A DNA stretch of 64,000 nt from Siphonodentalium dalli (Eukaryota; Mollusca; Scaphopoda; Gadilida; Siphonodentaliidae): assembly GCA_032622095.1 (NCBI GenBank), contig CP136061.1, forward strand, positions 67,769,127 through 67,833,126, read 5' to 3'. The position numbers and the translations under genes are program-made. Position 1 is the stretch's first letter, and each line of letters starts with the position of its first letter. The notes under the pieces are model-generated. The model searched no databases. It was not told the origin of the DNA and saw nothing but the letters and a program-made list of their open reading frames with translations. Shown here piece by piece: positions 36,287 to 63,805 of the stretch.

Positions 36287-36949
36287 AAATACACATGCAG
36301 AACGACACGATGTGTAAATGGGTTTGTCGATACAGCACGAGTGCCGTATCGACAAACCCATTTACACATCGTGTCGTTCTGTGTTTATTACACGCTTCGC
36401 GTCCTAGAATCCGTGCATTAAAAATACCTTACAGGATTAGAAGGTTTATTTAGGCTCATACAGGGCGTGTTTGTCATGTGTGATGATTCTTTTATTTAAA
36501 TAGTTCCAGTTTCATGGTTGAGACGAACGTCATGTACGTCATTTTACGTCAACGAGATGCGTATGGAACGTACGTTCCATACGGATTTGAAATATGGAAC
36601 AGCAATAACATTGTACTTCTAGGAACAAGCGTGTAATAAAATTAGTTACCATATTTATCTACTAGCTCATCGCCGGAACCGGACCAGGATATAAAAAAGT
36701 GATAATAATATGGGGTTCAAACCACCACGGGGCTTTAAAGGCACGGGCGGCGTTCGTTGCAGAAATATTCATATTTGTTCAAATTGCAATCAACAGAAGG
36801 AATGTTAAAATATATATAGTTTTGCTCATATGCCAAACATAATGAGCTCATAAATAGTATATATTGTCGTCAAGATGTACGATGGTGTACGTAAACAAGA
36901 ACCTGCTCGTGTTACAGAAGTTTTGCTTCTGTTTACATGACACAGCGCA

Positions 36950-37260
36950 ATTATATTGGTTAATCACACACAAATGATATAAACGCTCTTTATTATTTCC
37001 ATATCAGGAAAACAGTAACAAATACGGCTCTTCGTGTTTACCATATCCGGATCTGAACAAAAGCCAGGTTTTGTAACGTTTTTTGGCTTTTGTTTACATA
37101 ACAAAGGAAAAATATTTGACAATAACATACTGTTGATGCCATATTTCTTATTGGTATAAGAACAAAGTCTGTCTATATTTTACTATTCTTTCTGTTTATG
37201 GCGGTTTTTGACGGAGCTGAATATTTAACAGCATACACACCGCCAACGGCGCCCGTACCT
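36950..37260 (-). repeat. inverted copy of the 28,061-28,370 dispersed repeat
   Basis: TAATCACACACAAATGATATAAACGCTCTTTATTATT (CGCTCTTTAT at 36,985-36,994), a degraded second motif (CGGCTCTTCG at ~37,025) and GTACCTTTAAGC at ~37,254 mirror the 28-kb copy in order and spacing. Confidence 0.75.
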
Positions 37261-37393
37261 TTAAGCATGAAATAATAAAGAGAGTTTATTACTCAATTCC
37301 TGAACTGGTATGAATAAAGATTGTTTTTATTATATGCTTCCCCATTAAATAGTGGGAAATTGCCGTGGCGTAGAGCGTTATATCCATCGCCTG

Positions 37394-37463
37394 GACCGAC
37401 TCGATGGATAACACTGACCGACTCGATGGATAACACTGACCGACTCGATGGATAACACAATAG
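37394..37463. repeat. 24-bp tandem x3
   Basis: GACCGACTCGATGGATAACACT, three consecutive copies, the last diverging at its end. Confidence 0.95.
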
Positions 37464-37853
37464 TATTACTTTTTCGGAGATTACTTCCGGTTTATAGCGG
37501 CGAATCACATTAAGTTTCAAAGCGTATCAATAACAGCCGGACTATTGTTTTAATTATTGATTTTCACGGTTCATAAACTGTTATTTAATTGTTATAATGT
37601 TAACTCATTTGTTTTAATATATTCTTATCACTAAATTATGTATGCATTAATTTTCTCGCATCATTTCAGAATAAACAATGGGGACTATTTCTTATGGCGG
37701 CTATGCTCGATATTTGTCATTCAGTGGTGAGCAAATCAATTGATGGAATGTAAACAAAATGCAAATGTCGAAGCTTTCTAACAATTTGAAGTGAACTGTA
37801 GGACAAAATTAGCAGTTTTGGTGCGGTTTATAGCGCATATAATAAAAAGAAAA

Positions 37854-38007
37854 CCTACGGGTTTTGGTTGAATACCCGGATTATCTCATTCGTGGGTGCA
37901 AGGAAGTACAGAATTTCCACTCGCGGCTTGCAGCCGCTCGTGAAAATTCTGTACTTCCTTGCACCCACTCATGAGATAATTCGGGTATTCAACCAAAACT
38001 CGTAGGT
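37854..38007. repeat. 154-bp hairpin
   Basis: ACCTACGGGTTTTGGTTGAA to AGAATTTCCACTCG is mirrored down to TTCAACCAAAACTCGTAGGT. The loop, GGCTTGCAGCC, is itself a small palindrome. Similar in plan to 8,732-8,879. Confidence 0.92.
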
Positions 38008-38425
38008 ATTCTCTATTTATTACACGCTTGTTCCCAGAAGTACAGTGTTATTGATGTTCCATATTTAAAAATACGTATGGAACGTACGTTCCATACGCAT
38101 CTCGTTGACGTAAAATGACGTACATGACGTTCGCCTCAACCATGAAACCGGAACTATAAAAGCATCATCACACATGACAAAACTCGCTCTCTATGTGCCT
38201 AAATAAACCTTCTAAGTCTGTATTTTTAATGCACGGATTCTAGGACGCGAAGCGTGTAATAAACACAGAACAACACGATGTGTAAATGGGTTTGTCCATA
38301 CGGCACTCGTGCTGTCGCGGAAGGATAGAACTCGAGGCACAAGCGCCTCTCTTTCTATCCTTCCGTGACAGCACGAGTGCCGTATCGACAAACCCATATA
38401 CACCTAGTGTCGTTCTGTGTATGTA

Positions 38426-39438: not shown

Positions 39439-39850
39439 TATCAACATAACTATATATAGACCCAAAACTGACAATAACATTGGCTCTCATTAGACTGATA
39501 CCTTATTTCAACAAAGATCTCAATATTTATTGATGACTTTTAATTTCTCACACCCCACTGATTTAGCATGCACTCCTCTACTACATGTACAATTCAACCC
39601 ACAAATAATTGTCTGCAGCTCATACGTAAGTGTTCACATAAGTACCCCCACCAGGCGTAGTGGCGTCCCACCGAACATATTAGTATATGGGCTCTAATTA
39701 CCCTAGGTGTCACCAGAAAGGGGAATTGCAGTGACCACCATATTTATGTAGACCAACTAATTTCAGGATCCAGTTGTTGCCGTCAATATAGGCGGGAGAA
39801 TATGATTTTTTTTCACATTTTGCTCATGCTGCCCAACCTTGTTTTATGCA
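39439..39850. other. left flank of the giant element; nothing recognised
   Basis: AT-rich, no gene. Confidence 0.5.
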
Positions 39851-39889
39851 TGTTTCAGCAGCATGATTGTGACTCTGGGTTATGTATGT

Positions 39890-40128
39890 GTGGGACCCCC
39901 TTTTCCTATAGGTCTATGGCTCCATAGTATGGCAACGCCCCCTTTCCTATGCTTTGTATGTGTATATGGCCCCATAGTATGGCAACGCCCCCTTATTAAT
40001 TATTATATATCGCTCCTCCTTCCCACGTAATTTCTGGAACATTTTTTTTTTCTGGAAAATTCTGGAACATTTTTTTTGTTCTGGAACATTTTTATTGTTG
40101 TGGAACAATCTGGAACATTTTTTTTTCT
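39890..40128. repeat. subterminal repeats of the left arm
   Basis: CCATAGTATGGCAACGCCCC occurs twice (~39,922 and ~39,972). TCTGGAACATT(T)n occurs four times between 40,030 and 40,128, plus a variant. Repeated short motifs just inside the ends are typical transposase-binding candidates (inference). Confidence 0.8.
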
Positions 40129-40131
40129 AGT

Positions 40132-40385
40132 AAAATCCATAATGTATTCGTGTAATAAAATTCATACTTGTCTACGGCCTCTTTAAAATTATATAACTGT
40201 AAAGTCCCAATGTTAATTTCACACGGTACACACATAGGCTATCATAGCATCTATCTATTTACCATTCTCCACGCATAGAATTTAGGCAGTTAAAATCATT
40301 TATTTTTTGTTTTCTACAACATTATAGTAAATCCATGATGTATTCGTGTAAGACAATTCATACTTGTATATGGCCGTTTAAACTA
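40132..40385. repeat. direct repeat in left arm
   Basis: AAATCCATAATGTATTCGTG..AATTCATACTTGT at ~40,133-40,183 recurs at ~40,330-40,380. Confidence 0.8.
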
Positions 40386-40436
40386 ACAGTGCTGAAGGCA
40401 GACGCACCTTGGTCTGTTAATTAACTTCTAAGCACG

Positions 40437-40898
40437 TTGTATTATGCACCCGCTGCTGGGCACAGGGCTCTCAAGCTAATAACACAACATATAACCATTG
40501 CTGGAACATTCTCCAAACAGAACAATAACAGAGCATCATACAGTGATATGTTTTCATATACAACACTGATCCACACACTTTCTCGAAGCTTCGTAATTAA
40601 ACACACGTTTAAGTCATTAACTGCCACGATACAGATAACGACAGCATCTCTCTACATATTGAATATTATCGGAACCTGTAATCGAGGGCTATGCAAATAT
40701 GGGTGTTTAATCTGTCATTACTTTGCTGAACGTATAAGACCACCATTTCATACATTCCCCTATTTATATCACATAAAGCACAACATTTCTCAACCGACTA
40801 CATATATGACTCAATGTGGACCGAAAACCAGACGTGTTACCATCTTACGCCATAGGCATACTCATAGATCCATTGCACTCAACAGGTCAGAATGGTAA
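40437..40898 (+). CDS. hypothetical 153-aa ORF, left arm
   Basis: Starts MYYAPAAGHRALKLITQH. It is cysteine- and histidine-containing (RGLCKYGCLICHYF) with no recognised domain. The right arm has the same frame with one substitution (Q to H in ISQPTTY). Almost all of the first 63 codons are also open on the opposite strand (61 aa, 40,442-40,627), so only one of the two is likely to be real. Frame conservation between near-identical arms is weak evidence of function. Confidence 0.25.
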   Translation: MYYAPAAGHRALKLITQHITIAGTFSKQNNNRASYSDMFSYTTLIHTLSRSFVIKHTFKSLTATIQITTASLYILNIIGTCNRGLCKYGCLICHYFAERIRPPFHTFPYLYHIKHNISQPTTYMTQCGPKTRRVTILRHRHTHRSIALNRSEW

Positions 40899-41245
40899 AG
40901 CAATCTCTTTGAACCCCCATGAATAACTAATTAAAATATCTTTCCTGTTTGTTTCTGTGCTATAACCTTTCACAGTACAGTCTTGTGTGCACCCACGCTA
41001 TGACACCATTAAAGGGGGACACTGCACTCACGGTGGGGAATATTAAAAGGGTAATCTCGGTATGTGCAAGTTAAGGGGAACACAATGCACTCTAAAGGGA
41101 CACATGCATGGCACTCATTATGAATGAATGTTAAACGGCAACAAAATTGTAATTGGCCACTTACCTTCAAGTTAGATGTCACAAATTATGCATGTACATT
41201 CGATGTACGAATCAACACTGTAGGAAATGAAGGTATTGATTTGTT

Positions 41246-41312
41246 ATTACTTCAGAAATGGCTCATATAGCATACAAAGCATTTGGGTCACATACCTTAA
41301 AGGTACATGGCT
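41246..41312. repeat. first TTACTTCAGAAATGG..ACCTTAAAGGTAC module, left arm
   Basis: One ~65-bp module: TTACTTCAGAAATGGCTCAT, then GGTCACATACCTTAAAGGTAC. TTACCTTCAAGTTAGA lies 90 bp to its left. Further modules are at ~42,018, 42,341, 42,672 (altered), 43,168, 43,308, 43,438 and 43,668 (altered). Confidence 0.8.
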
Positions 41313-42005
41313 TCTGTGCAAGGGTGTTTGTGAATAGATTTAAAATGAGCATATGTTACCATCACTTCGTAAATTTACCTATCTATCCATCTTAAAGCAT
41401 TTATGAAAAATGTAGGGACACCAAGCATTATACATTTTCACAAACAGATGGGCACTAAACAGACCAGCGAGGCACTTGCTCTCACAAAAGCTAATAACAC
41501 ATAATCTATCCATTTCTGAAAAATTCTTGGCCCGTGTGAGTTAGCAGAAAAGCGTATTAAACTCGAAGCAGCCAATACTAATTATACAACATATGCTTAC
41601 AGAGCATAACCCATGCAATTTAACTATCACAAAAGTTATACCGCGAGCGGCATGAACCCTGAATACATACTGACTCCCTATTATGTATCCCTCCTAATGG
41701 TCAACTGTTATGGTACAATTGATTAAATCATCACTAACAGTAGTTAAGCTTTTTCTCTAAATACCCCTTTAATATCTGTAATCGAACTATTAGGAATCAA
41801 TCAACGCCTTGTCAATAGATATTTGAACATTTCAAATAAAGTAAATCCCACACACAATTTCTCGAAGCTTCGTAATTAAACACATGTTTAAGTCATTTAA
41901 TGCCACGATACGTCTGTCATTCAAATGCATGCTCCTAATGGCTTCTGCATCTGTACGTGGAGACTGAGAGATAAACAAAATTAATGTTTCTGTAGAAATT
42001 AAGGT
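41313..42005. other. left-arm stretch without gene
   Basis: Contains CTCGAAGCTTCGTAATTAAA near 41,861, a duplicate of the same string inside ORF-153 (~40,581). No ORF of note. Confidence 0.5.
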
Positions 42006-42680
42006 TTTCTAGTGTGTCACTACTTCAGATATGGTTCAAATAACATACAAATCACCGCATTTTGGTCACATACCTTAAAGGTACACGTCATTTATGCACT
42101 TAAACCTAATTCCGCGTATACATCAACAAAAACGCTCTTTATTTCCCAAATAGTTTGAATGTACCTAGTTTTAACAAAGATTTATGCAATCTACATGCTT
42201 TCATTCAAATAAAATTTACGACAACAACATTGTAACAGACTATCCACTTACCTTCAATTTATAGGTCATATTAGCCTGTGCATTTATGGGAGACAGACAT
42301 ACATAATATAATGCATTGGCACAGTGTTACTGATAATAATAAGGTGTCACTACTTCAGATATGGTTCAAATAACATACAAATCACCGCATTTTGGTCACA
42401 TACCTTAAAGGTACACGTCATTTATGCATTTAAACCTAATTCCGCGTATACATCAATAAAAACGCTCTTTATTTCTCAAATAGTTTGAATGTACCTAGTT
42501 TTAACAAAGATTTATGCAATCTACATGCTTTCATTCAAATAAAATTTACGACAACAACATTGTAACAGACTATCCACTTACCTTCAATTTATAGGTCATA
42601 TTAGCCTGTACATTTATGAGAGACAGACATACATAATATAATGCATTGGCACAGTGTTACTGATAATAATAAGGTGGCAT
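42006..42680. repeat. two tandem ~340-bp cassettes, left arm
   Basis: Each cassette holds ACTTCAGATATGGTTCAAAT, CATACCTTAAAGGTACACGT, CGCTCTTTAT (42,133 and 42,473), CACTTACCTTCAATTTATAG and AATGCATTGGCACAGTG. On the minus strand the third and last-but-one read as donor-like AAGGTATGTGACC and GAAGGTAAGTGG. The copies differ at only a few bases. Confidence 0.92.
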
Positions 42681-42749
42681 TACTTCAGAAATGGTTCATA
42701 TAGCATACTATTGTACCCATGGTCACATACATTAAACGAACACGTCACT

Positions 42750-43030
42750 TAAGCATTTAAACCTAACTCAGTGTATCTATCAATAAAACGCTCTTTATTT
42801 TCAAATTTGTCTGAATTGTACTAAATTTACATTTAAAATCAAGCATTTAAACCTAATTCCGTCCATCCATAAATAAAAAACGCTCTTTATTTTCAAAATT
42901 TGTCTTAATGTCCATCGTTTACTAAATTTATATTTAAAATTAAGCATTTAAACATAATTCATCGTATCCATAAATAAAAAACGCTCTTTATTTTCAAAAA
43001 CGTCCATAGTTTTAATAAAGATTTTTGCAA
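42750..43030. repeat. three ~97-bp tandem units with CGCTCTTTAT, left arm
   Basis: AAGCATTTAAACCTAA(T/C)TC..AATAAAA(A)ACGCTCTTTATTTTC, with CGCTCTTTAT at 42,789, 42,881 and 42,982. Confidence 0.9.
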
Positions 43031-43159
43031 TCTACATGCTTTCATTCATATAAAATTACCCAGTGTGTGTTAGACAACAACATTATAACATATTGGCTTT
43101 CAAGTTACATATGCATGTGCATTCGATGCACGAGACAACATTGTAGGAAATGAAGGCAT

Positions 43160-43560
43160 TGATGTGTCATTACTTCAGAAATTGTTCATACAATTGACCG
43201 TATTTTGATCACACACCTTAAAGGTACACGTCACTTTTGTCTATAATCACACAAAACATTACACATATAGGGTTCAACATGTCCACCGTAGTAAGCTTAT
43301 TTACTTCAGAAATGGTTCCAATAACATAGTATTGTACCGGTGGTATCACATACCTTAAAGGTACACGTCACTTTTGTCTATAATCAGACAATACATTACA
43401 CGTAGGGTTAAACATGTCCACCGTAGTAAACTTATTTACTTCAGAAATGGTTCCAATAGCATAGTATTATACCCGCGGGGTCACATACCTTAAAGGTACA
43501 CGTCATTTGTGTCTATAATCAGACAATACATTACGCATAGGGTTCAACATGGTCACCGAA
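43160..43560. repeat. three ~131-bp tandem units with ACCTTAAAGGTACACGTCA, left arm
   Basis: Each unit has TACTTCAGAAATGGTTCCAA, ACCTTAAAGGTACACGTCA, TGTCTATAATCAGACAATAC and GTTCAACATGTCCACCGTAG. The first unit carries 41 bp (~43,160-43,200) missing from the right arm. Confidence 0.9.
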
Positions 43561-43654
43561 GCAACCTAATCCAAAAGCAAAGAACACCCATTACTGAGTC
43601 CCGCTGTTACACACAACACAATAACTCGGGATTAAGGTCTTCTAGTGATGAGTT

Positions 43655-43933
43655 ATGGTTGTATACTTTAGAAATGGTACCTATAGCATAATATTGTACC
43701 ACATTGATGCACATCACGTTTCATGTGAATTACATGAGCAGGTAACTCAATTCTCTGCATTTCGAATGGAGTTGGGTATTTTTGTATATTATATACAGTG
43801 TTATTTAGCTTACAAATGGTTGTTATTTTATATCAATATGCCAGTTTATGTCACAGACAAAATGCGTGCTCACTCTTCACATAGACTAATGTGTAAGCAG
43901 TTGTATCATTTAGAATGGCAAAATATGGTCTAA
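43655..43933 (+). CDS. hypothetical 92-aa ORF, left arm
   Basis: Starts MVVYFRNGTYSIILYHIDAH. It is hydrophobic in the middle (FVYYIQCYLAYKWLLFYI), suggesting a possible membrane segment. Its start overlaps an altered repeat module. The right arm keeps it with one substitution. No family; could be chance. Confidence 0.2.
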   Translation: MVVYFRNGTYSIILYHIDAHHVSCELHEQVTQFSAFRMELGIFVYYIQCYLAYKWLLFYINMPVYVTDKMRAHSSHRLMCKQLYHLEWQNMV

Positions 43934-44804
43934 GTCAGTCGTATTAGCTATATATGGCCACTTACCGTTCAAGTTATAACCCCATTAAAACTATGCTTCA
44001 AATGTAAATTATATGTAACTTGAATATGATCGGTCCCCAGGCCCTTTTTAGGTCATAGGTTCTAACCGACCATCGTTCATACTCGAACGCTTGTGTATAT
44101 GATAGATGTGGTAATGGTAGAGAGAGCTAGTTAGGCAGGCCGTGAGATAGGTACACCCACTGCCTACATCAATATATATATACGATATACATGCACTGGC
44201 CGCAATGGGTTCCCGTTACTAGCCTATAGACATGAAATATTAAAGTTATACACCTTCATCAGCGCGCTCTTAATGAGTTTTGAATTGGCATATGGGTACG
44301 AATCCAAACCATTCGGATGTAATTTATCGGAATGCCAATCATAACAATCTGTACAGAGAAAGCTAGTGGGAACGATACACACTGTTTGCGTAATTGACTA
44401 GACACATGGCGGTAAAGAAGCACCCTGATGTATCAAAGGTATATTTCAAGGATTTTTAATCGGCAACCAATTATTGAATATATTTTTGTTGGGCATGGTC
44501 ATATGCACCACTGTGTTTCATATAAAACAAATAGTGGGTGGTTAAATCACCGAAGGCCAATATTCCCGATGGTAAGTTATTTTTAGCATATGGGATACAT
44601 TTATGACTAAATCGGTTATAGGAAATGAGGTAAATTGCACTTTATTATTTAAAAGGAATAACGCTATACAAGCTTAAACACACAAACCATGGGTTTTTAT
44701 CAACTTATTACGTGTAGCATATTTGGAGTTTAGTTATGTTCATCAAACACCGGCAATTGACACCTCTGTCTGGATATTTATGTTATTACGATTGGGTCCC
44801 GTGT
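43934..44804. other. downstream of the 192-aa gene, left arm; no gene
   Basis: On the minus strand TTGAACGGTAAGTGGCC lies near 43,957-43,973. TTTATTATTT near 44,642 is the likely poly(A) signal region (AATAAA on the minus strand) for the 192-aa gene. Confidence 0.4.
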
Positions 44805-45383
44805 TCACCCTTTTTTAGTCGTAAGCGAATAGTCTCCATAGCTCCAAATCGTTCCGAATGTCCAAACTAATTCACTATTTAATTCTGAAATAGGTTTAGT
44901 TGTGCTTACAATGTAATCCAAAACTAGTTGTTCATTTAACATCTTTTCAATAGTGAAAATAGGACAAGGTTCCCTCATAATAATGTAACCATAAATTGAT
45001 GTAACTTCTTCGAATTCCAAACTATAGTCATTAAAAACCGTGCTACGGTATTCAGCGAAGCGGGCAAAGTTATCACCGATAAGTACACGAATCTCATATA
45101 TGTCTTTTTTAGTAATACCACTAAATATCCAACAATCAGAAAACAGTTGATCCAAAGTATCCAGTAAGGTATCTGTTTCAAATTCTGATCTCTCCATCAA
45201 AGCATTCAATCTCTTTCTACCATCATCAAAATTTCCTTCTAGAAGTTCCGTAATTATTATTTTACTCTCCCTTAAGAACCATGTATGTTGTAATTCTGTT
45301 TTGATGTCTCCATGTATCGTTGACGCGTTAACTAACTCCTTGTAAATTTTCTCAAGCATTTCTGTGGGTAATATTTCCTCCAT
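44805..45383 (-). CDS. hypothetical 192-aa protein, left-arm copy
   Basis: Starts MEEILPTEMLEKIYKELV, which resembles the first helix of an F-box (LPxExLxxI), but no complete F-box or other domain is clear. The rest is acidic and helix-rich (TELLEGNFDDGRKRLNALME; LLDTLDQLFSDCWIF). No signal peptide or transmembrane segment. It is the longest non-repeat ORF of the element and is intact in both arms, differing at two residues (D/E in LFS(D/E)CW and S/C in IW(S/C)YGD). Upstream on the minus strand TATAAATA (45,550-45,557) lies about 170 bp before the ATG. I do not recognise the family. It may be an accessory or regulatory protein of the element. Confidence 0.6.
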   Translation of the reverse strand: MEEILPTEMLEKIYKELVNASTIHGDIKTELQHTWFLRESKIIITELLEGNFDDGRKRLNALMERSEFETDTLLDTLDQLFSDCWIFSGITKKDIYEIRVLIGDNFARFAEYRSTVFNDYSLEFEEVTSIYGYIIMREPCPIFTIEKMLNEQLVLDYIVSTTKPISELNSELVWTFGTIWSYGDYSLTTKKG

Positions 45384-47400
45384 AATTCCTAATTTACAAA
45401 ACCATCTGTTTATTCGAGTAAATCCGCTAACTCACATGTCATTGGGCATGAGTTTCTCATATAATTAACACAATCGGTTGTTCGTACCCATACCTAGTGA
45501 GCTTTTGATCTATAATAGCTAACGGTAATGTATTTAGTTCTTATTATAATATTTATAACCAATCAAAATCCGTTGCTGAATTTAGCTATACGAGGACAAA
45601 CGGAATGATAACAGCCGTTCAACAACTTGGTATTCCAGTCATAGTCATAGTTCATTTCATATTATTGCTCTAAAATCTCCATTACATGTAGAAAATAAAG
45701 AGCCCATCTGATGTAGACTAGTATATAAGTGCTTAGTGATTTATTTTCATCAATTATATGTATTGTTACTCCTTTAAATATAGTCTGTTATACAGAGGAT
45801 ACATCGCCCATGTGACAGTATCGTGTCGCGAAAGGTCTATACAAGTATATAAATGCGCGTCAGGTTTATGTATATGTCCCTGTTTCTTAAAGCAAATCCA
45901 GTACATATACGTGCGTTGAGACACGTGCAATTGCCACTAGTAAATCACGTATAAAAGCTCTTTACTGCATAGTCAAACTGTTGAGTTTTCACACGTATTC
46001 TATGTCGTTTTTTATGGACTATATACGTGGTATATGTCAGTATATACACGAATGTAATGTAATCACGTATTAATTTCATATATTCTTCTCAAAACAACTC
46101 AGCACAACGCATCAATTCTGATGTCTATGGCGGTTCAAACAGTGTACACTTTCAGTGTTGTTACCATTTGATGCATACCATAATCATTTATGCATAATAA
46201 CGCGGGTCTACATCGTTGCTATATACCTATATACGTCCATATTTCTTAAAGTATAGTATCTATACGTACATCATGGCGTATATTAAACCCCCTTTCACTG
46301 GTAAATCACGAATAAACGCTCTTTATTTTATAGTCAACTAACCATTTATACATACACGCTGCTCTATGGTGGTCTGTTGTGTCTTACCATTATATGTAGA
46401 AGGTAATGTAGTCAAATATGTATAAGTCTGATTTTGTGTCAATGTGCCTGTTATTAATCTCATCAATTGGGTCATTTATAAGTCGTCAAACATGATGATT
46501 TCTAATCATCTAATAGGTATTATAAAAAATGCCTACTTCACAAATATTCTGAGTGCATTTCAGTGTATATTTCGTACTCTGTAAAAACGTGATTTGACCG
46601 CTAGTGATGTAGTGAAATAACCTATTTTATAGTTGTCAAATACGTACTAAAAATATTGTCAATTTATGACTCATCTAATGAATTTTCCACACCTAGTGTC
46701 TACAATATGTTTATATATTGTGACTCATTACTACGATTGCAGTATGTCCACGTATGTCAGATATTACATAACCTTGATAACTATGTTTAGAAATACCTGG
46801 TATATGAGATCATATTGTAGCTGACAGAGACTGGAATGCGACTTGCATCTACCATCACGTGCGTTCGAATGACGTTACATGTACGATATGAGCCATTATA
46901 TGTGTCGATGAGGTGTTATATCAGTATATTCATGCAATATTCGTAAATGACAGCAACATATCTTTTCCCTCCCATTATCAAGCGAGATTTTGTGGTTAGA
47001 TGACAAACATGGCATTTCGAATATATATAGCCTATTGGATACTTACTTCAAATGCTAAAATTGCCTCTTCAAAATAGTTAAAAGCACACATTTTTATTTC
47101 GAATTTCATTGTTTACGGTTAATTTTCTGTTATGAAATTGGTCCTTTTATAAACGCGTATTACGTAGTTACAAAAAGCCCTAATTGACAAACATTTTAAG
47201 TGCTATTATGACTATATTCGACGAATAAAAAAAACGCCATTTGACATAGTACAACAACGCGAAATGACTACTTTTTTAAACGCGAATTTGAAACAAAACT
47301 AATATACAAAAGAATTTTAAACTAAAATTATAAGTTTGGTTGATGTATAGTTTGGTTGACAGCATTTTCACACACAGAAGCGTTATGATAAAGATTCACC
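45384..47400. other. left-arm stretch without ORFs
   Basis: Two kb of AT-rich DNA with CGCTCTTTAT at 46,318-46,327 and relaxed motif versions near 45,707 and 45,955. It is as well conserved between the arms as the genes are, so arm identity alone is not evidence of coding. Confidence 0.5.
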
Positions 47401-47552
47401 ACGCACACAGAAGCGATCTTATACGGTGTAGCGGTATGTTACAGAGTTATCGTTCTTTTCGAGGCTAAAAAAAGCGCAGGCCGGCCCCTCCCTCTCCCCC
47501 GTTTTAAAAGGGGTGGGGTTAAGGGGAAGCGATCGAGCGTCACGAAAAAAAT

Positions 47553-49241
47553 GTCATAGAAGAAAAGTATAAGGCAGAGGAAATGGATGAGGGAAACGAC
47601 ACAGTATGAGGGGTAATGGAGTGTGGGACAGGGGGATGGGATGATATGACCGTGTATTAATTGGAGATGATAATGGATTAGGTAGTGTACACTGTTCATG
47701 GTTTTTAATATATGAATTAACATAAAGTGACGAACTTAGGAGGCTAGGAAAAGCCACTCTATATAGGTGTATACATGTATATGGTGCAAAAGGGGGAAGG
47801 AGATGGGGAGAGCGTGAGGCAAGAAATTGTGGGAGAAGGGTATAATTTGGAGAAAAACATTGAGGTGTAAACCTTACTTTCCTAGGAAAAAATTGGGATT
47901 GTTGTGGGTAGAACAGAGGTAAAATAAGAGTTGTATAAAATGGAAAAGGGAGACATTAAAAGCATGAAAGGTGCTTATGGGAAAAGGGTAAAGGGGGGCA
48001 GTGGGAGAGTGTACAGAGGTGTATATCGAAGAGTATAGGAGGCTAAGAAAAGCCACTCAATATAGGTTTATACATGTAGATGGTGCAAAAAGGGGAAGGA
48101 GATGGGGAGAGCGAGAGGCAAGAAATTGGGGCAGAAGGGTATAATTTGGAGGCAACATTGAGGTGTAAGCCTTACTTTCCTAGGAAAACATTGGGATTGT
48201 TGTGGGTAGAACAGAGGTAAAATAAGAGGTGTATAAAATGGAAAAGGGAGACATTAAAAGCATGAAAGGTGCTTATGGGAAAAGGGTAAAGGGGCACTGG
48301 GAGAGTGTATATAGGTGTATAGCGAAGAGTATAGGAGGCTAACAAAAGCCACTCAACAGAGGTTTATACATGTGTAAAATGGGGAAGGCGATGGGGAGAG
48401 TGAGAGGCAAGTAAATGGGTGCAGAAGGGTATAATTTGGAGAATACGTTGAGTAGTAAGCATTACTTTCCTAGGAAAACATTGGGATTGTTGTGGGAAGA
48501 ACAAAGTGTTTAGAGGTACAAAAGGGGAAGGTAAACAATAATGAAAGGTGGTTATGTGGAGCAAGGTAAATGGGGTATAGGGTAAAATACATAGAGGTGT
48601 ATAGCAGAGAGCTGGGTTGGGGAACATGTACATAATTAAAGTAGATGAGATAAGAATAATCATTGAGTATATACCTAAATCATATGAAATGTGGGGGTTT
48701 TGCTTTGGAAGGAGAGGGGTTACCATGCTTGCAGACAGTAATTATGGGTAAGAGCCGGCAAGGGGCTTAAATGGTATAGAAAATAAAATGGCACCAGGTA
48801 GAGGGAGTGAGAAAAGAGGGCCATATGGGTAAAAGTATAACTAAATCATATGAACTGGGTGGAGGGGAGAAGAGATGGGTAAAAGGGGACACACATATAT
48901 ATATATATATAATTTAGGTGTAAGCAGTTGATCGAAAACATAGGGGATGTAACGCGACAAAAGAGTAAACATAAAGCAGAGAATGAATGGAAAGTATTAC
49001 ATATATGTGTATGAACTTGGTGGTTTGTGTATTAAGGATACAGTAGTAAAAAGGAGAACACATGCAAAATGGTGTAAACTTATAGGAAATGACAGGGACA
49101 TAGGGCAAAGAACATGAATGATGCACAAAGTAGCACAAAGATGATGGCTAAGAAGTTCGGAAGGGAGGGGGTTATATTGGGTAAGGGTAAAAGTAGAATT
49201 GTGGTAAATATGTAGAAAGGTTATGTGTAAAATGGGGTGAA
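47553..49241. repeat. purine-rich core of the giant element with ~299-bp tandem
   Basis: The plus strand is rich in A and G and very poor in C throughout (GGGGAAGGAGATGGGGAGAG and similar). Tandem units start GGAGGCTA(A/G).AAAAGCCACT at 47,739, 48,038 and 48,334, giving periods of 299 and 296 bp. The third is partial and decays near 48,610. Later sequence (48,610-49,240) keeps the bias without clear repeats, and includes (AT)n at ~48,897-48,911. The many minus-strand frames (rich in S, P, L, F, H) come from the bias and are not supported as genes. Confidence 0.9.
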
Positions 49242-49349
49242 ATTTTTTTCGTGACGCTCGATCGCTTCCCCTTAACCCCACCCCTTTTAAAACGGGGGAG
49301 AGGGAGGGGCCGGCCTGCGCTTTTTTTAGCCTCGAAAAGAACGATAACT

Positions 49350-51244
49350 CTGTAACATACCGCTACACCGTATAAGATCGCTTCTGTGTGCGTGGTGAAT
49401 CTTTATCATAACGCTTCTGTGTGTGAAAATGCTGTCAACCAAACTATACATCAACCAAACTTATAATTTTAGTTTAAAATTCTTTTGTATATTAGTTTTG
49501 TTTCAAATTCGCGTTTAAAAAAGTAGTCATTTCGCGTTGTTGTACTATGTCAAATGGCGTTTTTTTTATTCGTCGAATATAGTCATAATAGCACTTAAAA
49601 TGTTTGTCAATTAGGGCTTTTTGTAACTACGTAATACGCGTTTATAAAAGGACCAATTTCATAACAGAAAATTAACCGTAAACAATGAAATTCGAAATAA
49701 AAATGTGTGCTTTTAACTATTTTGAAGAGGCAATTTTAGCATTTGAAGTAAGTATCCAATAGGCTATATATATTCGAAATGCCATGTTTGTCATCTAACC
49801 ACAAAATCTCGCTTGATAATGGGAGGGAAAAGATATGTTGCTGTCATTTACGAATATTGCATGAATATACTGATATAACACCTCATCGACACATATAATG
49901 GCTCATATCGTACATGTAACGTCATTCGAACGCACGTGATGGTAGATGCAAGTCGCATTCCAGTCTCTGTCAGCTACAATATGATCTCATATACCAGGTA
50001 TTTCTAAACATAGTTATCAAGGTTATGTAATATCTGACATACGTGGACATACTGCAATCGTAGTAATGAGTCACAATATATAAACATATTGTAGACACTA
50101 GGTGTGGAAAATTCATTAGATGAGTCATAAATTGACAATATTTTTAGTACGTATTTGACAACTATAAAATAGGTTATTTCACTACATCACTAGCGGTCAA
50201 ATCACGTTTTTACAGAGTACGAAATATACACTGAAATGCACTCAGAATATTTGTGAAGTAGGCATTTTTTATAATACCTATTAGATGATTAGAAATCATC
50301 ATGTTTGACGACTTATAAATGACCCAATTGATGAGATTAATAACAGGCACATTGACACAAAATCAGACTTATACATATTTGACTACATTACCTTCTACAT
50401 ATAATGGTATAATGGTAAGACGCAACAGACCACCATAGAGCAGCGTGTATGTATAAATGGTTAGTTGACTATACAATAAAGAGCGTTTATTCGTGATTTA
50501 CCAGTGAAAGGGGGTTTAATATACGCCATGATGTACGTATAGATACTATACTTTAAGAAATATGGACGTATATAGGTATATAGCAACGATGTAGACCCGC
50601 GTTATTATGCATAAATGATTATGGTATGCATCAAACGGTAACAACACTGAAAGTGTACACTGTTTGAACCGCCATAGACATCAGAATTGATGCGTTGTGC
50701 TGAGTTGTTTTGAGAAGAATATATGAAATTAATACGTGATTACATTACATTCGTGTATATACTGACATATACCACGTATATAGTCCATAAAAAACGACAT
50801 AGAATACGTGTGAAAACTCAACAGTTTGACTATGCAGTAAAGAGCTTTTATACGTGATTTACTAGTGGCAATTGCACGTGTCTCAACGCACGTATATGTA
50901 CTGGATTTGCTTTAAGAAACAGGGACATATACATAAACCTGACGCGCATTTATATACTTGTATAGACCTTTCGCGACACGATACTGTCACATGGGCGATG
51001 TATCCTCTGTATAACAGACTATATTTAAAGGAGTAACAATACATATAATTGATGAAAATAAATCACTAAGTACTTATATACTATTCTACATCAGATGGGC
51101 TCTTTATTTTCTACATGTAATGGAGATTTTAGAGCAATAATATGAAATGAACTATGACTATGACTGGAATACCAAGTTGTTGAACGGCTGTTATCATTCC
51201 GTTTGTCCTCGTATAGCTAAATTCAGCAACGGATTTTGATTGGT
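49350..51244. other. right-arm stretch without ORFs
   Basis: Counterpart of 45,550-47,440. ATAAAGAGCG at 50,476-50,485. No gene. Confidence 0.5.
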
Positions 51245-51252
51245 TATAAATA
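51245..51252 (+). promoter_or_regulatory. TATA-like box before the 192-aa gene (right arm)
   Basis: TATAAATA, 167 bp before the ATG. The mirror copy is at 45,550-45,557. Distance allows a leader of about 140 nt. Confidence 0.35.
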
Positions 51253-51418
51253 TTATAATAAGAACTAAATACATTACCGTTAGCTATTATAGATCAAAAG
51301 CTCACTAGGTATGGGTACGAACAACCGATTGTGTTAATTATATGAGAAACTCATGCCCAATGACATGTGAGTTAGCGGATTTACTCGAATAAACAGATGG
51401 TTTTGTAAATTAGGAATT

Positions 51419-51997
51419 ATGGAGGAAATATTACCCACAGAAATGCTTGAGAAAATTTACAAGGAGTTAGTTAACGCGTCAACGATACATGGAGACATCA
51501 AAACAGAATTACAACATACATGGTTCTTAAGGGAGAGTAAAATAATAATTACGGAACTTCTAGAAGGAAATTTTGATGATGGTAGAAAGAGATTGAATGC
51601 TTTGATGGAGAGATCAGAATTTGAAACAGATACCTTACTGGATACTTTGGATCAACTGTTTTCTGAGTGTTGGATATTTAGTGGTATTACTAAAAAAGAC
51701 ATATATGAGATTCGTGTACTTATCGGTGATAACTTTGCCCGCTTCGCTGAATACCGTAGCACGGTTTTTAATGACTATAGTTTGGAATTCGAAGAAGTTA
51801 CATCAATTTATGGTTACATTATTATGAGGGAACCTTGTCCTATTTTCACTATTGAAAAGATGTTAAATGAACAACTAGTTTTGGATTACATTGTAAGCAC
51901 AACTAAACCTATTTCAGAATTAAATAGTGAATTAGTTTGGACATTCGGAACGATTTGGTGCTATGGAGACTATTCGCTTACGACTAAAAAAGGGTGA
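51419..51997 (+). CDS. hypothetical 192-aa protein, right-arm copy
   Basis: The second intact copy of the protein at 44,805-45,383, with E and C at the two variable residues. It is followed by AATAAA at 52,156-52,161. Downstream on the same strand lie all the donor-like cassettes of the right arm, so if transcription continues past the stop those would form spliced 3' sequence. No recognised family. Confidence 0.6.
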   Translation: MEEILPTEMLEKIYKELVNASTIHGDIKTELQHTWFLRESKIIITELLEGNFDDGRKRLNALMERSEFETDTLLDTLDQLFSECWIFSGITKKDIYEIRVLIGDNFARFAEYRSTVFNDYSLEFEEVTSIYGYIIMREPCPIFTIEKMLNEQLVLDYIVSTTKPISELNSELVWTFGTIWCYGDYSLTTKKG

Positions 51998-52868
51998 ACA
52001 CGGGACCCAATCGTAATAACATAAATATCCAGACAGAGGTGTCAATTGCCGGTGTTTGATGAACATAACTAAACTCCAAATATGCTACACGTAATAAGTT
52101 GATAAAAACCCATGGTTTGTGTGTTTAAGCTTGTATAGCGTTATTCCTTTTAAATAATAAAGTGCAATTTACCTCATTTCCTATAACCGATTTAGTCATA
52201 AATGTATCCCATATGCTAAAAATAACTTACCATCGGGAATATTGGCCTTCGGTGATTTAACCACCCACTATTTGTTTTATATGAAACACAGTGGTGCATA
52301 TGACCATGCCCAACAAAAATATATTCAATAATTGGTTGCCGAATAAAAATCCTTGAAATATACCTTTGATACATCAGGGTGCTTCTTTACCGCCATGTGT
52401 CTAGTCAATTACGCAAACAGTGTGTATCGTTCCCACTAGCTTTCTCTGTACAGATTGTTATGATTGGCATTCCGATAAATTACATCCGAATGGTTTGGAT
52501 TCGTACCCATATGCCAATTCAAAACTCATTAAGAGCGCGCTGATGAAGGTGTATAACTTTAATACTTCATGTCTATAGGCTAGTAACGGGAACCCATTGC
52601 GGCCAGTGCATGTATATCGTATATATATATTGATGTAGGCAGTGGGTGTACCTATCTCACGGCCTGCCTAACTAGCTCTCTCTACCATTACCACATCTAT
52701 CATATACACAAGCGTTCGAGTATGAACGATGGTCGGTTAGAACCTATGACCTAAAAAGGGCCTGGGGACCGATCATATTCAAGTTACATATAATTTACAT
52801 TTGAAGCATAGTTTTAATGGGGTTATAACTTGAACGGTAAGTGGCCATATATAGCTAATACGACTGAC
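51998..52868. other. downstream of the 192-aa gene, right arm
   Basis: Counterpart of 43,934-44,804; donor-like TTGAACGGTAAGTGGCC at ~52,829-52,845. Confidence 0.45.
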
Positions 52869-53147
52869 TTAGACCATATTTTGCCATTCTAAATGATACA
52901 ACTGCTTACATATTAGTCTATGTGAAGAGTGAGCACGCATTTTGTCTGTGACATAAACTGGCATATTGATATAAAATAACAACCATTTGTAAGCTAAATA
53001 ACACTGTATATAATATACAAAAATACCCAACTCCATTCGAAATGCAGAGAATTGAGTTACCTGCTCATGTAATTCACATGAAACGTGATGTGCATCAATG
53101 TGGTACAATATTATGCTATAGGTACCATTTCTAAAGTATACAACCAT
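52869..53147 (-). CDS. hypothetical 92-aa ORF, right arm
   Basis: Copy of 43,655-43,933 with one substitution (M to I before CKQLY). Same doubts apply. Confidence 0.2.
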   Translation of the reverse strand: MVVYFRNGTYSIILYHIDAHHVSCELHEQVTQFSAFRMELGIFVYYIQCYLAYKWLLFYINMPVYVTDKMRAHSSHRLICKQLYHLEWQNMV

Positions 53148-53239
53148 AACTCATCACTAGAAGACCTTAATCCCGAGTTATTGTGTTGTGTGTAACAGCG
53201 GGACTCAGTAATGGGTGTTCTTTGCTTTTGGATTAGGTT

Positions 53240-53610
53240 GCTTCGGTGACCATGTTGAACCCTATGCGTAATGTATTGTCTGATTATAGACACAAATGAC
53301 GTGTACCTTTAAGGTATGTGACCCCGCGGGTATAATACTATGCTATTGGAACCATTTCTGAAGTAAATAAGTTTACTACGGTGGACATGTTTAACCCTAC
53401 GTGTAATGTATTGTCTGATTATAGACAAAGTGACGTGTACCTTTAAGGTATGTGATACCACCGGTACAATACTATGTTATTGGAACCATTTCTGAAGTAA
53501 ATAAGCTTACTACGGTGGACATGTTGAACCCTATATGTGTAATGTTTTGTGTGATTATAGACAAAAGTGACGTGTACCTTTAAGGTGTGTGATCAAAATA
53601 CGGTCTTCAT
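53240..53610. repeat. ~131-bp tandem units, right arm
   Basis: Counterpart of 43,160-43,560. The unit nearest the gene-distal side has lost 41 bp, joining GAAATGAAG directly to ACCGTATTTTG (read in left-arm orientation). Confidence 0.9.
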
Positions 53611-53729
53611 TTCCTACAATGTTGTCTCGTGCATCGAATGCACATGCATATGTAACTTGAAAGCCAATATGTTATAATGTTGTTGTCTAACACACACTGG
53701 GTAATTTTATATGAATGAAAGCATGTAGA

Positions 53730-54010
53730 TTGCAAAAATCTTTATTAAAACTATGGACGTTTTTGAAAATAAAAAGCGTTTTTTATTTATGGATACGATG
53801 AATTATGTTTAAATGCTTAATTTTAAATATAAATTTAGTAAACGATGGACATTAAGACAAATTTTGAAAATAAAGAGCGTTTTTTATTTATGGATGGACG
53901 GAATTAGGTTTAAATGCTTGATTTTAAATGTAAATTTAGTACAATTCAGACAAATTTGAAAATAAAGAGCGTTTTATTGATAGATACACTGAGTTAGGTT
54001 TAAATGCTTA
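53730..54010. repeat. ~97-bp tandem units with ATAAAGAGCG, right arm
   Basis: ATAAAGAGCG at 53,870 and 53,962, and a variant AATAAAAAGCG near 53,768 where the left arm keeps the consensus. Confidence 0.9.
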
Positions 54011-54084
54011 AGTGACGTGTTCGTTTAATGTATGTGACCATGGGTACAATAGTATGCTATATGAACCATTTCTGAAGTAATGCC

Positions 54085-54755
54085 ACCTTATTATTATCAG
54101 TAACACTGTGCCAATGCATTATATTATGTATGTCTGTCTCTCATAAATGTACAGGCTAATATGACCTATAAATTGAAGGTAAGTGGATAGTCTGTTACAA
54201 TGTTGTTGTCGTAAATTTTATTTGAATGAAAGCATGTAGATTGCATAAATCTTTGTTAAAACTAGGTACATTCAAACTGTTTGAGAAATAAAGAGCGTTT
54301 TTATTGATGTATACGCGGAATTAGGTTTAAATGCATAAATGACGTGTACCTTTAAGGTATGTGACCAAAATGCGGTGATTTGTATGTTATTTGAACCATA
54401 TCTGAAGTAGTGACACCTTATTATTATCAGTAACACTGTGCCAATGCATTATATTATGTATGTCTGTCTCCCATAAATGTACAGGCTAATATGACCTATA
54501 AATTGAAGGTAAGTGGATAGTCTGTTACAATGTTGTTGTCGTAAATTTTATTTGAATGAAAGCATGTAGATTGCATAAATCTTTGTTAAAACTAGGTACA
54601 TTCAAACTATTTGGGAAATAAAGAGCGTTTTTGTTGATGTATACGCGGAATTAGGTTTAAGTGCATAAATGACGTGTACCTTTAAGGTATGTGACCAAAA
54701 TGCGGTGATTTGTATGTTATTTGAACCATATCTGAAGTAGTGACACACTAGAAAA
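54085..54755. repeat. two tandem ~340-bp cassettes, right arm
   Basis: Counterpart of 42,006-42,680. ATAAAGAGCG at 54,288 and 54,618; TTGAAGGTAAGTGG near 54,175 and 54,505; ACCTTTAAGGTATGTGACC near 54,348 and 54,678. Confidence 0.92.
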
Positions 54756-55861
54756 CCTTAATTTCTACAGAAACATTAATTTTGTTTATCTCTCAGTCTC
54801 CACGTACAGATGCAGAAGCCATTAGGAGCATGCATTTGAATGACAGACGTATCGTGGCATTAAATGACTTAAACATGTGTTTAATTACGAAGCTTCGAGA
54901 AATTGTGTGTAGGATTTACTTTATTTGAAATGTTCAAATATCTATTGACAAGGCGTTGGTTGATTCCTAATAGTTCGATTACAGATATTAAAGGGGTATT
55001 TAGAGAAAAAGCTTAACTACTGTTAGTGATGATTTAATCAATTGTACCATAACAGTTGACCATTAGGAGGGATACATAATAGGGAGTCAGTATGTATTCA
55101 GGGTTCATGCCGCTCGCGGTATAACTTTTGTGATAATTAAATTGCATGGGTTATGCTCTGTAAGCATATGTTGTATAATTAGTATTGGCTGCTTCGAGTT
55201 TAATACGCTTTTCTGCTAACTCACACGGGCCAAGAATTTTTCAGAAATGGATAGATTATGTGTTATTAGCTTTTGTGAGAGCAAGTGCCTCGCTGGTCTG
55301 TTTAGTGCCCATCTGTTTGTGAAAATGTATAATGCTTGGTGTCCCTACATTTTTCATAAATGCTTTAAGATGGATAGATAGGTAAATTTATGAAGTGATG
55401 GTAACATATGCTCATTTTAAATCTATTCACAAACACCCTTGCACAGAAGCCATGCACCTTTAAGGTATGTGACCCAAATGCTTTGTATGCTATATGAGCC
55501 ATTTCTGAAGTAATAACAAATCAATACCTTCATTTCCTACAGTGTTGATTCGTACATCGAATGTACATGCATAATTTGTGACATCTAACTTGAAGGTAAG
55601 TGGCCAATTACAATTTTGTTGCCGTTTAACATTCATTCATAATGAGTGCCATGCATGTGTCCCTTTAGAGTGCATTGTGTTCCCCTTAACTTGCACATAC
55701 CGAGATTACCCTTTTAATATTCCCCACCGTGAGTGCAGTGTCCCCCTTTAATGGTGTCATAGCGTGGGTGCACACAAGACTGTACTGTGAAAGGTTATAG
55801 CACAGAAACAAACAGGAAAGATATTTTAATTAGTTATTCATGGGGGTTCAAAGAGATTGCT
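54756..55861 (+). other. right-arm stretch with exon-like pieces
   Basis: TTTCTACAG near 54,762 is followed by an open frame reading SPRTDAEAIRSMHLNDRRIV then ALNDLN.CLITKLRE, ending at a stop near 54,930. Its last part repeats the start of the ORF at 56,133-56,318. TTTCCTACAG (~55,533-55,542) and TTGAAGGTAAGTGG (~55,591) bracket ~53 bp with stops in all frames. One more ACCTTTAAGGTATGTGACC is near 55,457. Confidence 0.35.
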
Positions 55862-56323
55862 TTACCATTCTGACCTGTTGAGTGCAATGGATCTATGAGT
55901 ATGCCTATGGCGTAAGATGGTAACACGTCTGGTTTTCGGTCCACATTGAGTCATATATGTAGTCGGATGAGAAATGTTGTGCTTTATGTGATATAAATAG
56001 GGGAATGTATGAAATGGTGGTCTTATACGTTCAGCAAAGTAATGACAGATTAAACACCCATATTTGCATAGCCCTCGATTACAGGTTCCGATAATATTCA
56101 ATATGTAGAGAGATGCTGTCGTTATCTGTATCGTGGCAGTTAATGACTTAAACGTGTGTTTAATTACGAAGCTTCGAGAAAGTGTGTGGATCAGTGTTGT
56201 ATATGAAAACATATCACTGTATGATGCTCTGTTATTGTTCTGTTTGGAGAATGTTCCAGCAATGGTTATATGTTGTGTTATTAGCTTGAGAGCCCTGTGC
56301 CCAGCAGCGGGTGCATAATACAA
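55862..56323 (-). CDS. hypothetical 153-aa ORF, right arm
   Basis: Copy of 40,437-40,898 with Q to H in ISHPTTY. The opposite strand carries an intact 61-aa frame (56,133-56,318, starting MAVNDLNVCLITKLRE). A diverged relative at ~54,850 shares NDLN.CLITKLRE in the same orientation. This makes the 61-aa strand at least as plausible. Confidence 0.25.
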   Translation of the reverse strand: MYYAPAAGHRALKLITQHITIAGTFSKQNNNRASYSDMFSYTTLIHTLSRSFVIKHTFKSLTATIQITTASLYILNIIGTCNRGLCKYGCLICHYFAERIRPPFHTFPYLYHIKHNISHPTTYMTQCGPKTRRVTILRHRHTHRSIALNRSEW

Positions 56324-56624
56324 CGTGCTTAGAAGTTAATTAACAGACCAAGGTGCGTCTGCCTTCAGCACTGTTAGTTTAAACGGCCATATACAAGTAT
56401 GAATTGTCTTACACGAATACATCATGGATTTACTATAATGTTGTAGAAAACAAAAAATAAATGATTTTAACTGCCTAAATTCTATGCGTGGAGAATGGTA
56501 AATAGATAGATGCTATGATAGCCTATGTGTGTACCGTGTGAAATTAACATTGGGACTTTACAGTTATATAATTTTAAAGAGGCCGTAGACAAGTATGAAT
56601 TTTATTACACGAATACATTATGGA

Positions 56625-56875
56625 TTTTACTAGAAAAAAAAATGTTCCAGATTGTTCCACAACAATAAAAATGTTCCAGAACCAAAAAAATGTTCCAGAA
56701 TTTTCCAGAAAAAAAAAATGTTCCAGAAATTACGTGGGAAGGAGGAGCGATATATAATAATTAATAAGGGGGCGTTGCCATACTATGGGGCCATATACAC
56801 ATACAAAGCATAGGAAAGGGGGAGTTGCCATACTATGGAGCCATAGACCTATAGGAAAAGGGGGGTCCCACACAT
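56625..56875. repeat. subterminal repeats of the right arm
   Basis: Inverse of 39,890-40,128: A-run plus ATGTTCCAGA units, then two GGGG(C/A)GTTGCCATACTATGG units. Confidence 0.8.
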
Positions 56876-56910
56876 ACATAACCCAGAGTCACAATCATGC
56901 TGCTTGTTTC

Positions 56911-60839: not shown

Positions 60840-63805
60840 AATTACTACACACCTTCTTGGTAAATAGGCCCAGTTGACCATCGGTTGACCACCTACAGAT
60901 ATCCTGGGGGGATGGTACGTAAAAAATGACAAATTTTGAAGGAAATTTCGTATAGTTTGAGTATTTAGTGGCACAAGCTGTCGCTTTATGCCCACATAAT
61001 GACTATTCCTACCCGCCTTACAGAAAACCCGGACCAGTTGACCCTCGGTTGACCACCTACAGATATCCTGGGGGGATGGTACGTAAAAAAAATGACCAAT
61101 TTTGAAGGAAATTTCGTATAGTTTGAGTATTTAGTGGCAAAAGCTGTCGCTTTATGCCCACATAATCACCATTCCTACCCGCCTTACAGAAAACCCGGAC
61201 CAGTTGACCCTCGGTTGACCACCTACAGATATCCTGGGGGGATGGTACGCAAAAAATGACCAATTTTGAAGGAAATTTCGTATAGTTTGAGTATTTAGTG
61301 GCACAAGCTGTCGCTTTTTGTCCACATAATCACCATTCCTACCCGCCTTACAGAAAACCCGGACCAGTTGACCCTCGGTTGACCACCTACAGATATCCTG
61401 GGGGGATGGTACGTAAAAAAAATGACCAATTTTGAAGGAAATTTCGTATAGTTTGAGTATTTAGTGGCACAAGCTGTCGCTTTATGCCCACATAATCACC
61501 ATTCCTACCCGCCTTACAGAAAACCCGGACCAGTTGACCCTCGGTTGACCACCTACAGATATCCTGGGGGGATGGTACGCAAAAAATGACAAATTTTGAA
61601 GGAAATTTCGTATAGTTTGAGTATTTAGTGGCACAAGCTGTCGCTTTTTGTCCACATAATCACCATTCCTACCCGCCTTACAGAAAACCCGGACCAGTTG
61701 ACCCTCGGTTGACCACCTACAGATATCCTGGGGGGATGGTACGTAAAAAATGACCAATTTTGAAGGAAATTTCGTATAGTTTGAGTATTTAGTGGCACAA
61801 GCTGTCGCTTTATGCCCACATAATCACCATTTCTACCCGCCTTACAGAAAACCCGGACCAGTTGACCCTCGGTTGACCACCTACAGATATCCTGGGGGAT
61901 GGAACTTAAAAAAATGACCAATTTTGAAGGAAATTTCGTATAGTTTGAGTATTTAGTGGCACAAGCTGTCGCTTTATGCCCACATAATCACCATTCCTAC
62001 CCGCCTTACAGAAAACCCGGACCAGTTGACCCTCGGTTGACCACCTACATATATCCTGGGGGATGGTACGCAAAAAATGACCAATTTTGAAGGAAATTTC
62101 GTATAGTTTGAGTATTTAGTGGCACAAGCTGGCGCTTTTTGTCCACATAATCACCATTCCTACCCGCATTACAGAAAACCCGGACCAGTTGACCCTCGGT
62201 TGACCACCTACAGATATCCTGGGGGGGATGGTAAGTAAAAAAAATGACAAATTTTGAAGGAAATTTCGTATAGTTTGAGTATTTAGTGGCACAAGCTGTC
62301 GCTTTATGCCCACATAATCACTATGCCTACCCGCCTTACAGAAAACCCGGACCAGTTGACCCTCGGTTGTCCACCTACAGATATCCTGGGGGGATGGTAC
62401 GCAAAAAATGACCAATTTTGAAGTAAATTTCGTATAGTTTGAGTATTTAGTGGCACAAGCTGTCGCTTTTTGTCCACATAATCACCATTCCTACCCGCCT
62501 TACAGAAAACCCGGACCAGTTGACCCTCGGTTGACCACCTTCAGATATCCTGGGGGGATGGTACGTAAAAAATGACCAATTTTGAAGGAAATTTCGTATA
62601 GTTTGAGTATTTAGTGGCACAAGCTGTCGCTTTTTGTCCACATAATCAACATTCCTACCGCCTTACAGAAAACCCGGACCAGTTGACCCTCGGTTGAGCA
62701 CCTACAGATATCCTGGGGGGATAGTACGTAAAAAATGACCAATTTTGAAGGAAATTTCGTATAGTTTGAGTATTTAGTGGCACAAGCTGTCGCTTTATGC
62801 CCACATAATCACCATTCCTACCCGCCTTACAGAAAACCCGGACCAGTTGACCATCGGTTGACCACCTACAGATATCCTGGGTGGATGGCACGTAAAAAAA
62901 ATGACCAATTTTGAAGAAAATTTCGTATAGTTTGAGTATTTAGTGGCACAAGCTGTCGCTTTATGCCCACATAATCACCATTCCTACCCGCCTTACAGAA
63001 AACCCGGACCAGTTGACCCTCGGTTGACCACCTACAGATATCCTGGGGGGATGGAACGTAAAAAAAATGACCAATTTTGAAGTAAATTTCGTATAGTTTG
63101 AGTATTTAGTGGCACAAGCTGTCGCTTTATGCACACATAATCACCATTCCTACCCGCCTTACAGAAAACCCGGACCAGTTGACCCTCGGTTGACCACCTA
63201 CAGATATCCTGGGGGGATGGTACGTAAAAAATGACCAATTTTGAAGGAAATTTCGTATAGTTTGAGTATTTAGTGGCACAAGCTGTCGCTTTATGCCCAC
63301 ATAATCACCATTCCTACCCGCCTTACAGAAAACCCGGACCAGTTGACCATCGGTTGACCACCTACAGATATCCTGGGGGGATGGTACGTAAAAAAATGAC
63401 CAATTTTGAAGGAAATTTCGTATAGTTTGAGTATTTAGTGGCACAAGCTGTCGCTTTATGCCCACATAATCACCATTCCTACCTGCCTTACAGAAAACCC
63501 GGACCAGTTGACCCTCGGTTGACCACCTACAGATATCCTGGGGGATGGAACGTAAAACAAATGACCAATTTTGAAGTAAATTTCGTATAGTTTGAGTATT
63601 TAGTGGCACAAGCTGTCGCTTTATGCCCACATAATCACCATTCCTACCCGCCTTACAGAAAACCCGGACCAGTTGACCCTCGGTTGACCACCTACAGATA
63701 TCCTGGGGGGATGGTACCCAAAAAAATGACAAATTTTGAAGGAAATTTCGTATAGTTTGAGTATTTAGTGGCACAAGCTGGCGCTTTTTGTCCACATAAT
63801 CACCA
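60840..63805. repeat. satellite of 18 units, ~164 bp each
   Basis: ACCTACAGATATCCTGGGGG and close variants occur 18 times, from 60,891 to ~63,690, at intervals of 159-170 bp (164, 166, 164 and 166 for the first four). Other unit parts are CACCATTCCTACCCGCCTTA, AAACCCGGACCAGTTGACC, GAAGGAAATTTCGTATAGTT and GCACAAGCTGTCGCTTTATG. Units differ by only a few bases, so the array is recently homogenised. Minus-strand frames up to 222 codons arise because ~165 is divisible by three; they shift at each A-run length change and are not genes. Confidence 0.97.

Follow-up and report, generated by a model that had tools for sequence, protein, structure and literature searches.

A 17-kb insertion with giant inverted arms in the scaphopod Siphonodentalium dalli and its probable affinity to Polinton/Maverick elements

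Terminal repeats of short units are a trace of protein-primed polymerases, which start inside the end and then slide or jump back, as in adenovirus and phi29. The ends of Polinton/Maverick elements are likewise built of short repeated units: a survey of vertebrate Mavericks reports 6-bp target-site duplications together with the common end types (AGT)2//(ACT)2 and (AG)3//(CT)3 and, in one eel, a third, intact copies of 12,723-24,620 bp (mean 16,862, standard deviation 1,678), and terminal inverted repeats (TIRs) that in these copies span 46-1,447 bp with a mean of 402 bp (PMC8097293). A duplication length of 6 bp is also given for Polintons in a second source (PMC10045372). Here we describe a near-palindromic insertion in the scaphopod mollusc Siphonodentalium dalli (assembly GCA_032622095.1, contig CP136061.1, positions 67,769,127 to 67,833,126 of the forward strand; this stretch of 64,000 nucleotides is called the window, and all coordinates below refer to it) and compare it with these and other mobile elements.

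The insertion occupies 39857-56904 (17,048 bp) and is bounded by mirror ends, as established by self-BLAST and alignment. Its left arm, on the plus strand at 39857-47556, is 7,700 bp long and starts with AGCAGCATGATTGTGAC, while the right arm, on the minus strand at 49238-56904, is 7,667 bp long and terminates in GTCACAATCATGCTGCT, so that the element ends are (AGC)2//(GCT)2. Self-BLAST and a scan of the ends place a TGTTTC duplication at 39851-39856 and 56905-56910, which is perfect and adjoins both element ends exactly where the homology between the arms stops. Since the first base beyond the arms is C on one side and A on the other, arm homology ends precisely at AGCAGC, with the duplication abutting it. 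Within the window, a perfect 6-bp match arises by chance at a rate of 0.000495 (400,000 random position pairs). The sequence-only reading from which we started had given the same coordinates, duplications included, with TGTTTC on both flanks, AGCAGC../..GCTGCT termini and 7.7-kb inverted arms, and its estimate that 90% of the element is inverted repeat agrees with our lengths ((7,700+7,667)/17,048). When up to 4 mismatches are allowed, the 17-base end is found at 3 places in the window, namely the two exact ends and a 4-mismatch match at 6152. The same end gave two matches in viral contigs, which we take as chance by a rough estimate; the open reading frames (ORFs) of one of the two contigs look bacteriophage-like by eye. 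Inspection by eye shows the 9 bases TCATGCTGC in the left host flank at 39824-39832, 24 bp before the element starts, and again within the element's right end, which may be a chance coincidence.

Like Polinton/Maverick elements, the insertion has a 6-bp duplication; its AG..CT ends consist of a doubled triplet and thus follow the same style with different letters (AGC as against AGT or AG), and its length lies inside the range of intact vertebrate copies. Unlike intact vertebrate copies, with their TIRs of 46-1,447 bp, it has a TIR of 7.7 kb, and no core gene (PolB, integrase, ATPase, protease or capsid) was recognised, although such genes are expected in autonomous copies only. Judged by the duplication, the end style and the size of this one copy, the element probably belongs to the Polinton/Maverick group. 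On balance we lean towards reading it as a non-autonomous element of this type, mobilised in trans, in which the terminal repeat has grown to nearly half of the whole. The sequence-only reading had considered a Polinton-like derivative, for which the 6-bp duplication, the doubled-triplet AG..CT ends and the size speak, whereas no PolB or integrase was recognised and no full-length partner or second copy was seen in the window; its statement that no canonical Polinton gene is present holds as far as a Pfam scan run without a positive control can reach. That scan covered the six frames of the spacer and the right arm, with X at stops; the left arm is a 99.7% copy of the right. In literature searches, which covered few subscription papers and not Repbase, no paper on a non-autonomous Polinton came up, and the papers on foldback and palindromic elements, as judged by titles and the openings of abstracts, describe no Polinton whose arms form a giant palindrome.

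The two arms are 99.71% identical over 7,658 aligned columns (Kimura two-parameter distance 0.0029), being separated by 22 substitutions (13 transitions and 9 transversions) and four indels of 1, 41, 1 and 8 bp. These substitutions are distributed over the entire arm (3, 3, 4, 1, 3, 2, 5 and 1 per 963-bp bin), while repeat units within a single arm diverge from one another by ~7-26%, and the arm was therefore copied or homogenised as one block. These tandem units, of 330, 101 and 135 bp and several with a CACATACCTTAAAGGTA core, lie on the plus strand of the left arm at 42014-43558 and are mirrored on the minus strand of the right arm at 53244-54746; the 330- and 135-bp units occur in each arm, and the 101-bp units were recorded in the left one. 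The repeat core has 0 matches in viral contigs. As read from the alignment and with no clock applied, a divergence of 0.29% between the arms suggests that insertion or homogenisation was recent.

How a terminal repeat might come to fill most of an element is suggested by adeno-associated virus (AAV), whose populations contain both symmetric and asymmetric snap-back genomes (PMC8235507). Perhaps the giant arms go back to a template switch of this snap-back kind in the course of protein-primed replication, an event that copies an arm as a block in a single step. A Maverick polymerase of this kind, acting in trans, would initiate at the doubled terminal triplet; the nascent or displaced strand would then fold back and be copied from an internal point up to its own terminus, which would yield the arms and replace the opposite end together with its genes. 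The 1,681-bp spacer between the arms would be the loop left uncopied, such as an asymmetric switch leaves behind, and the product would be inserted by a Maverick integrase through a 6-bp staggered cut. Replication would keep the arms alike, with divergence accruing only after insertion, and the low divergence, even along the arm, suggests that the arms drift only from that point on. At the inner junctions both arms open with TGA and one mismatch, followed by a long common stretch, which fits a short-homology switch without proving it; when the left inner junction was tested for folding, it showed no special structure (z 0.84; 163 of 200 shuffled sequences folded just as well). Alternatively, the same end product could be reached by gradual TIR growth as in the Drosophila element Galileo, whose TIRs lengthen by tandem repeats and recruited inner sequence and, in Drosophila mojavensis, are longest only in non-autonomous copies (PMC3573991).

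Each arm also carries one ORF of 192 amino acids (208 codons from stop to stop) that reads outward, so that the two copies are divergent: the left-arm copy, at 44805-45383 on the minus strand, reads toward the left end and the right-arm copy, at 51419-51997 on the plus strand, toward the right end. The right-arm copy is surrounded by a TATAAA-like site at 51245 and an AATAAA at 52156. An open frame of at least 208 codons appeared in 2 of 1000 arms simulated with an order-2 Markov model; less exceptional is a second open frame, whose 157 codons were reached in 36 of the 1000. The purine-pyrimidine periodicity of its codons does not set the ORF frame apart from other frames, and the two copies differ at two residues, D to E and S to C, both of them replacements, so that this sample of two changes carries no signal of selection. 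Since the periodicity does not separate the frames and both changes alter the protein, the coding status leans mainly on ORF length, and we consider it plausible from the sequence that the ORF is a gene. Protein searches returned no relative at E up to 0.001 or up to 10 among 84 word-sharing candidates, and none in the PDB at E up to 10. The best Pfam match of the ORF alone, DUF3769 with an E value of 0.062, fell under its cut-off, and the best PHROGs match had an E value of 0.04, with no family above cut-off. None of the 4 pattern matches in viral contigs and none of the 82 in prokaryote contigs was confirmed. A single-sequence AlphaFold model of the ORF reached a mean pLDDT (predicted local distance difference test) of 39.9.

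Several observations weigh against a Polinton/Maverick derivative with snap-back arms. The Pfam scan returned no family whatever with an E value up to 1, those of PolB, integrase, capsid, ATPase and protease included, although the same scan, besides having no positive control, missed the DUF3769 match (E 0.062) that the ORF gives on its own. The arms are ~5 times as long as the longest TIR (1,447 bp) in the vertebrate survey, and (AGC)2 is not among the vertebrate Maverick end motifs which that survey reports (PMC8097293). The homology at the inner junctions is too short to carry weight, and stepwise expansion by recombination could yield the same sequence as a snap-back event. It is possible, though in our judgement rather unlikely, that the element belongs instead to the foldback transposons of another superfamily, or of one not yet described, that duplicates 6 bp; its TIRs would have lengthened through tandem repeats and the recruitment of internal sequence, as in Galileo, and its AG..CT triplet ends would be coincidental. 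The failure to recognise a Polinton gene in the Pfam scan would fit this explanation, and the internal repetition of the arms, with units of 330, 135 and 101 bp, is in the style of Galileo, a Foldback-like element with long TIRs that are internally repetitive in some subfamilies, grow by repeats and recruitment, and can account for the greater part of a non-autonomous copy, being longest there (PMC3573991). However, Galileo makes 7-bp duplications, has a transposase of the P superfamily and is reported with TIRs up to ~1.26 kb (PMC3573991); we rejected membership in it, given the 6-bp duplication here and the fact that no transposase was recognised in the Pfam scan. IS3EU and GingerRoot do share the duplication length of 6 bp but end in TA..TA or, occasionally in GingerRoot, TG..CA (PMC10045372), and were set aside for an element ending in AG..CT. 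The duplications of Ginger1 and Ginger2 are 4 bp and those of TDD 5 bp (PMC2836005). Dada duplicates 6-7 bp, but it is without TIRs and targets small-RNA genes (PMC3706591); the present element has TIRs, and TGTTTC is absent from the Dada duplications shown in that paper. No tRNA or Rfam match was found in the window, though such a gene could escape detection if the element interrupts it. Of the groups with 6-bp duplications compared here, IS3EU/GingerRoot and Dada fit worse than Polinton/Maverick. Teratorn, another element considered, differs in its size of 41-182 kb, its piggyBac-like transposase and its 18-bp TIRs (PMC6431247). Any foldback origin outside the Polintons would moreover make the Polinton-like size and end style mere chance.

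The large inverted ends, the virus-sized length and the orphan ORF could also point to another linear DNA virus that has terminal repeats and one gene per arm, integrated here either as its own genome or as that of a satellite. AAV offers the precedent, in that both halves of its snap-back subgenomes are copied from a single end and an unpaired part may or may not be present, but it is a small single-stranded virus with Rep-nicked inverted terminal repeats, whereas the element here is integrated with a target duplication (PMC8235507). Against this reading, the clean duplication of 6 bp and the exact ends would indicate a DDE integrase, and the ORF has neither a Pfam or PHROG family above cut-off nor a confirmed relative in viral contigs; we regard a viral origin of this kind as very unlikely. 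Long inverted repeats are also a familiar error of library preparation for long reads and of their assembly, and the palindrome might be an artefact of assembly or of a chimeric read. One would expect a fold-back read or a mis-assembly to carry the mirror image on into the flanks and not to stop at a target duplication, yet the palindrome halts at a perfect 6-bp duplication and the flanks are not mirrored. The arms, furthermore, differ by 22 substitutions and only two single-base indels in addition to those of 41 and 8 bp, and the unique spacer sits at the axis of the fold. An artefact is unlikely on the sequence taken by itself, and of the explanations weighed here we hold it to be the least credible.

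The remaining features of the element and its surroundings can be stated briefly. Four TTCTGGAA motifs lie within 55 bp on the plus strand of the left arm (40032-40086), 175-230 bp from the left end, and are mirrored by a cluster at 56674-56728 in the right arm; judged by the consensus sequence alone, the cluster resembles paired heat-shock elements. The unique spacer (47557-49237, plus strand, 1,681 bp) contains a 298-bp tandem unit repeated 2.6 times. Its plus strand is 69.2% purine (A 37%, G 32%, T 23%, C 8%), with a GC skew of ~0.6, compared with a purine maximum of 54.8% in 1,600-bp stretches of the rest of the window, taken as those starting outside 45501-49800. The long open frames on the minus strand of the spacer probably result from this purine bias. 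Elsewhere in the window, a second TIR element at 31525-35536 measures 4.0 kb and has arms of ~1 kb with 96% identity; its 301-codon frame (33502-34407) has no Pfam match above cut-off, and none of 2018 protein candidates matched it at E<=0.001. A third inverted-repeat element, at 36332-38315, has arms of ~300 bp with 91% identity and a palindrome nested in its left end. Three tandem arrays were also noted: a satellite array at 60870-63805, with a 164-bp unit repeated 17.8 times and 95% matches; one at 26575-27689, with a different 164-bp unit repeated 6.9 times; and one at 18037-20001, with a 36-bp unit repeated 55 times, in which several frames are open across hundreds of codons. Together with the TIR elements and the low coding density of the window, the satellites would by themselves suggest a eukaryotic host.

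Returning to the Polinton/Maverick reading, a more speculative extension, which we consider doubtful, would make the element a transmissible Maverick satellite. It would then be a snap-back genome that lost all of its helper genes and regained a packageable length of ~17 kb by doubling one end. Its replication and its packaging into Maverick particles would take place in trans, the integrase of the helper would reinsert it, and it would retain two copies of a private gene. The element has, at 17.0 kb, the length of a complete Maverick despite no Maverick gene having been recognised in it; such a length would follow if packaging in a helper particle preserved it, and, coming from one copy, it may also be chance. 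At the time of the vertebrate survey, Maverick particles had not been observed (PMC8097293). The case for virus-like replication and packaging of animal Mavericks has been made mainly from genes. If the satellite proposal is true, the element would correspond, among Mavericks, to the defective-interfering or self-complementary genomes of viruses and would suggest, though a single copy is no proof, that Mavericks have satellites. An element free of Maverick genes that keeps Maverick-style ends, length and a snap-back layout would then be a fossil of the Maverick replication mechanism itself.

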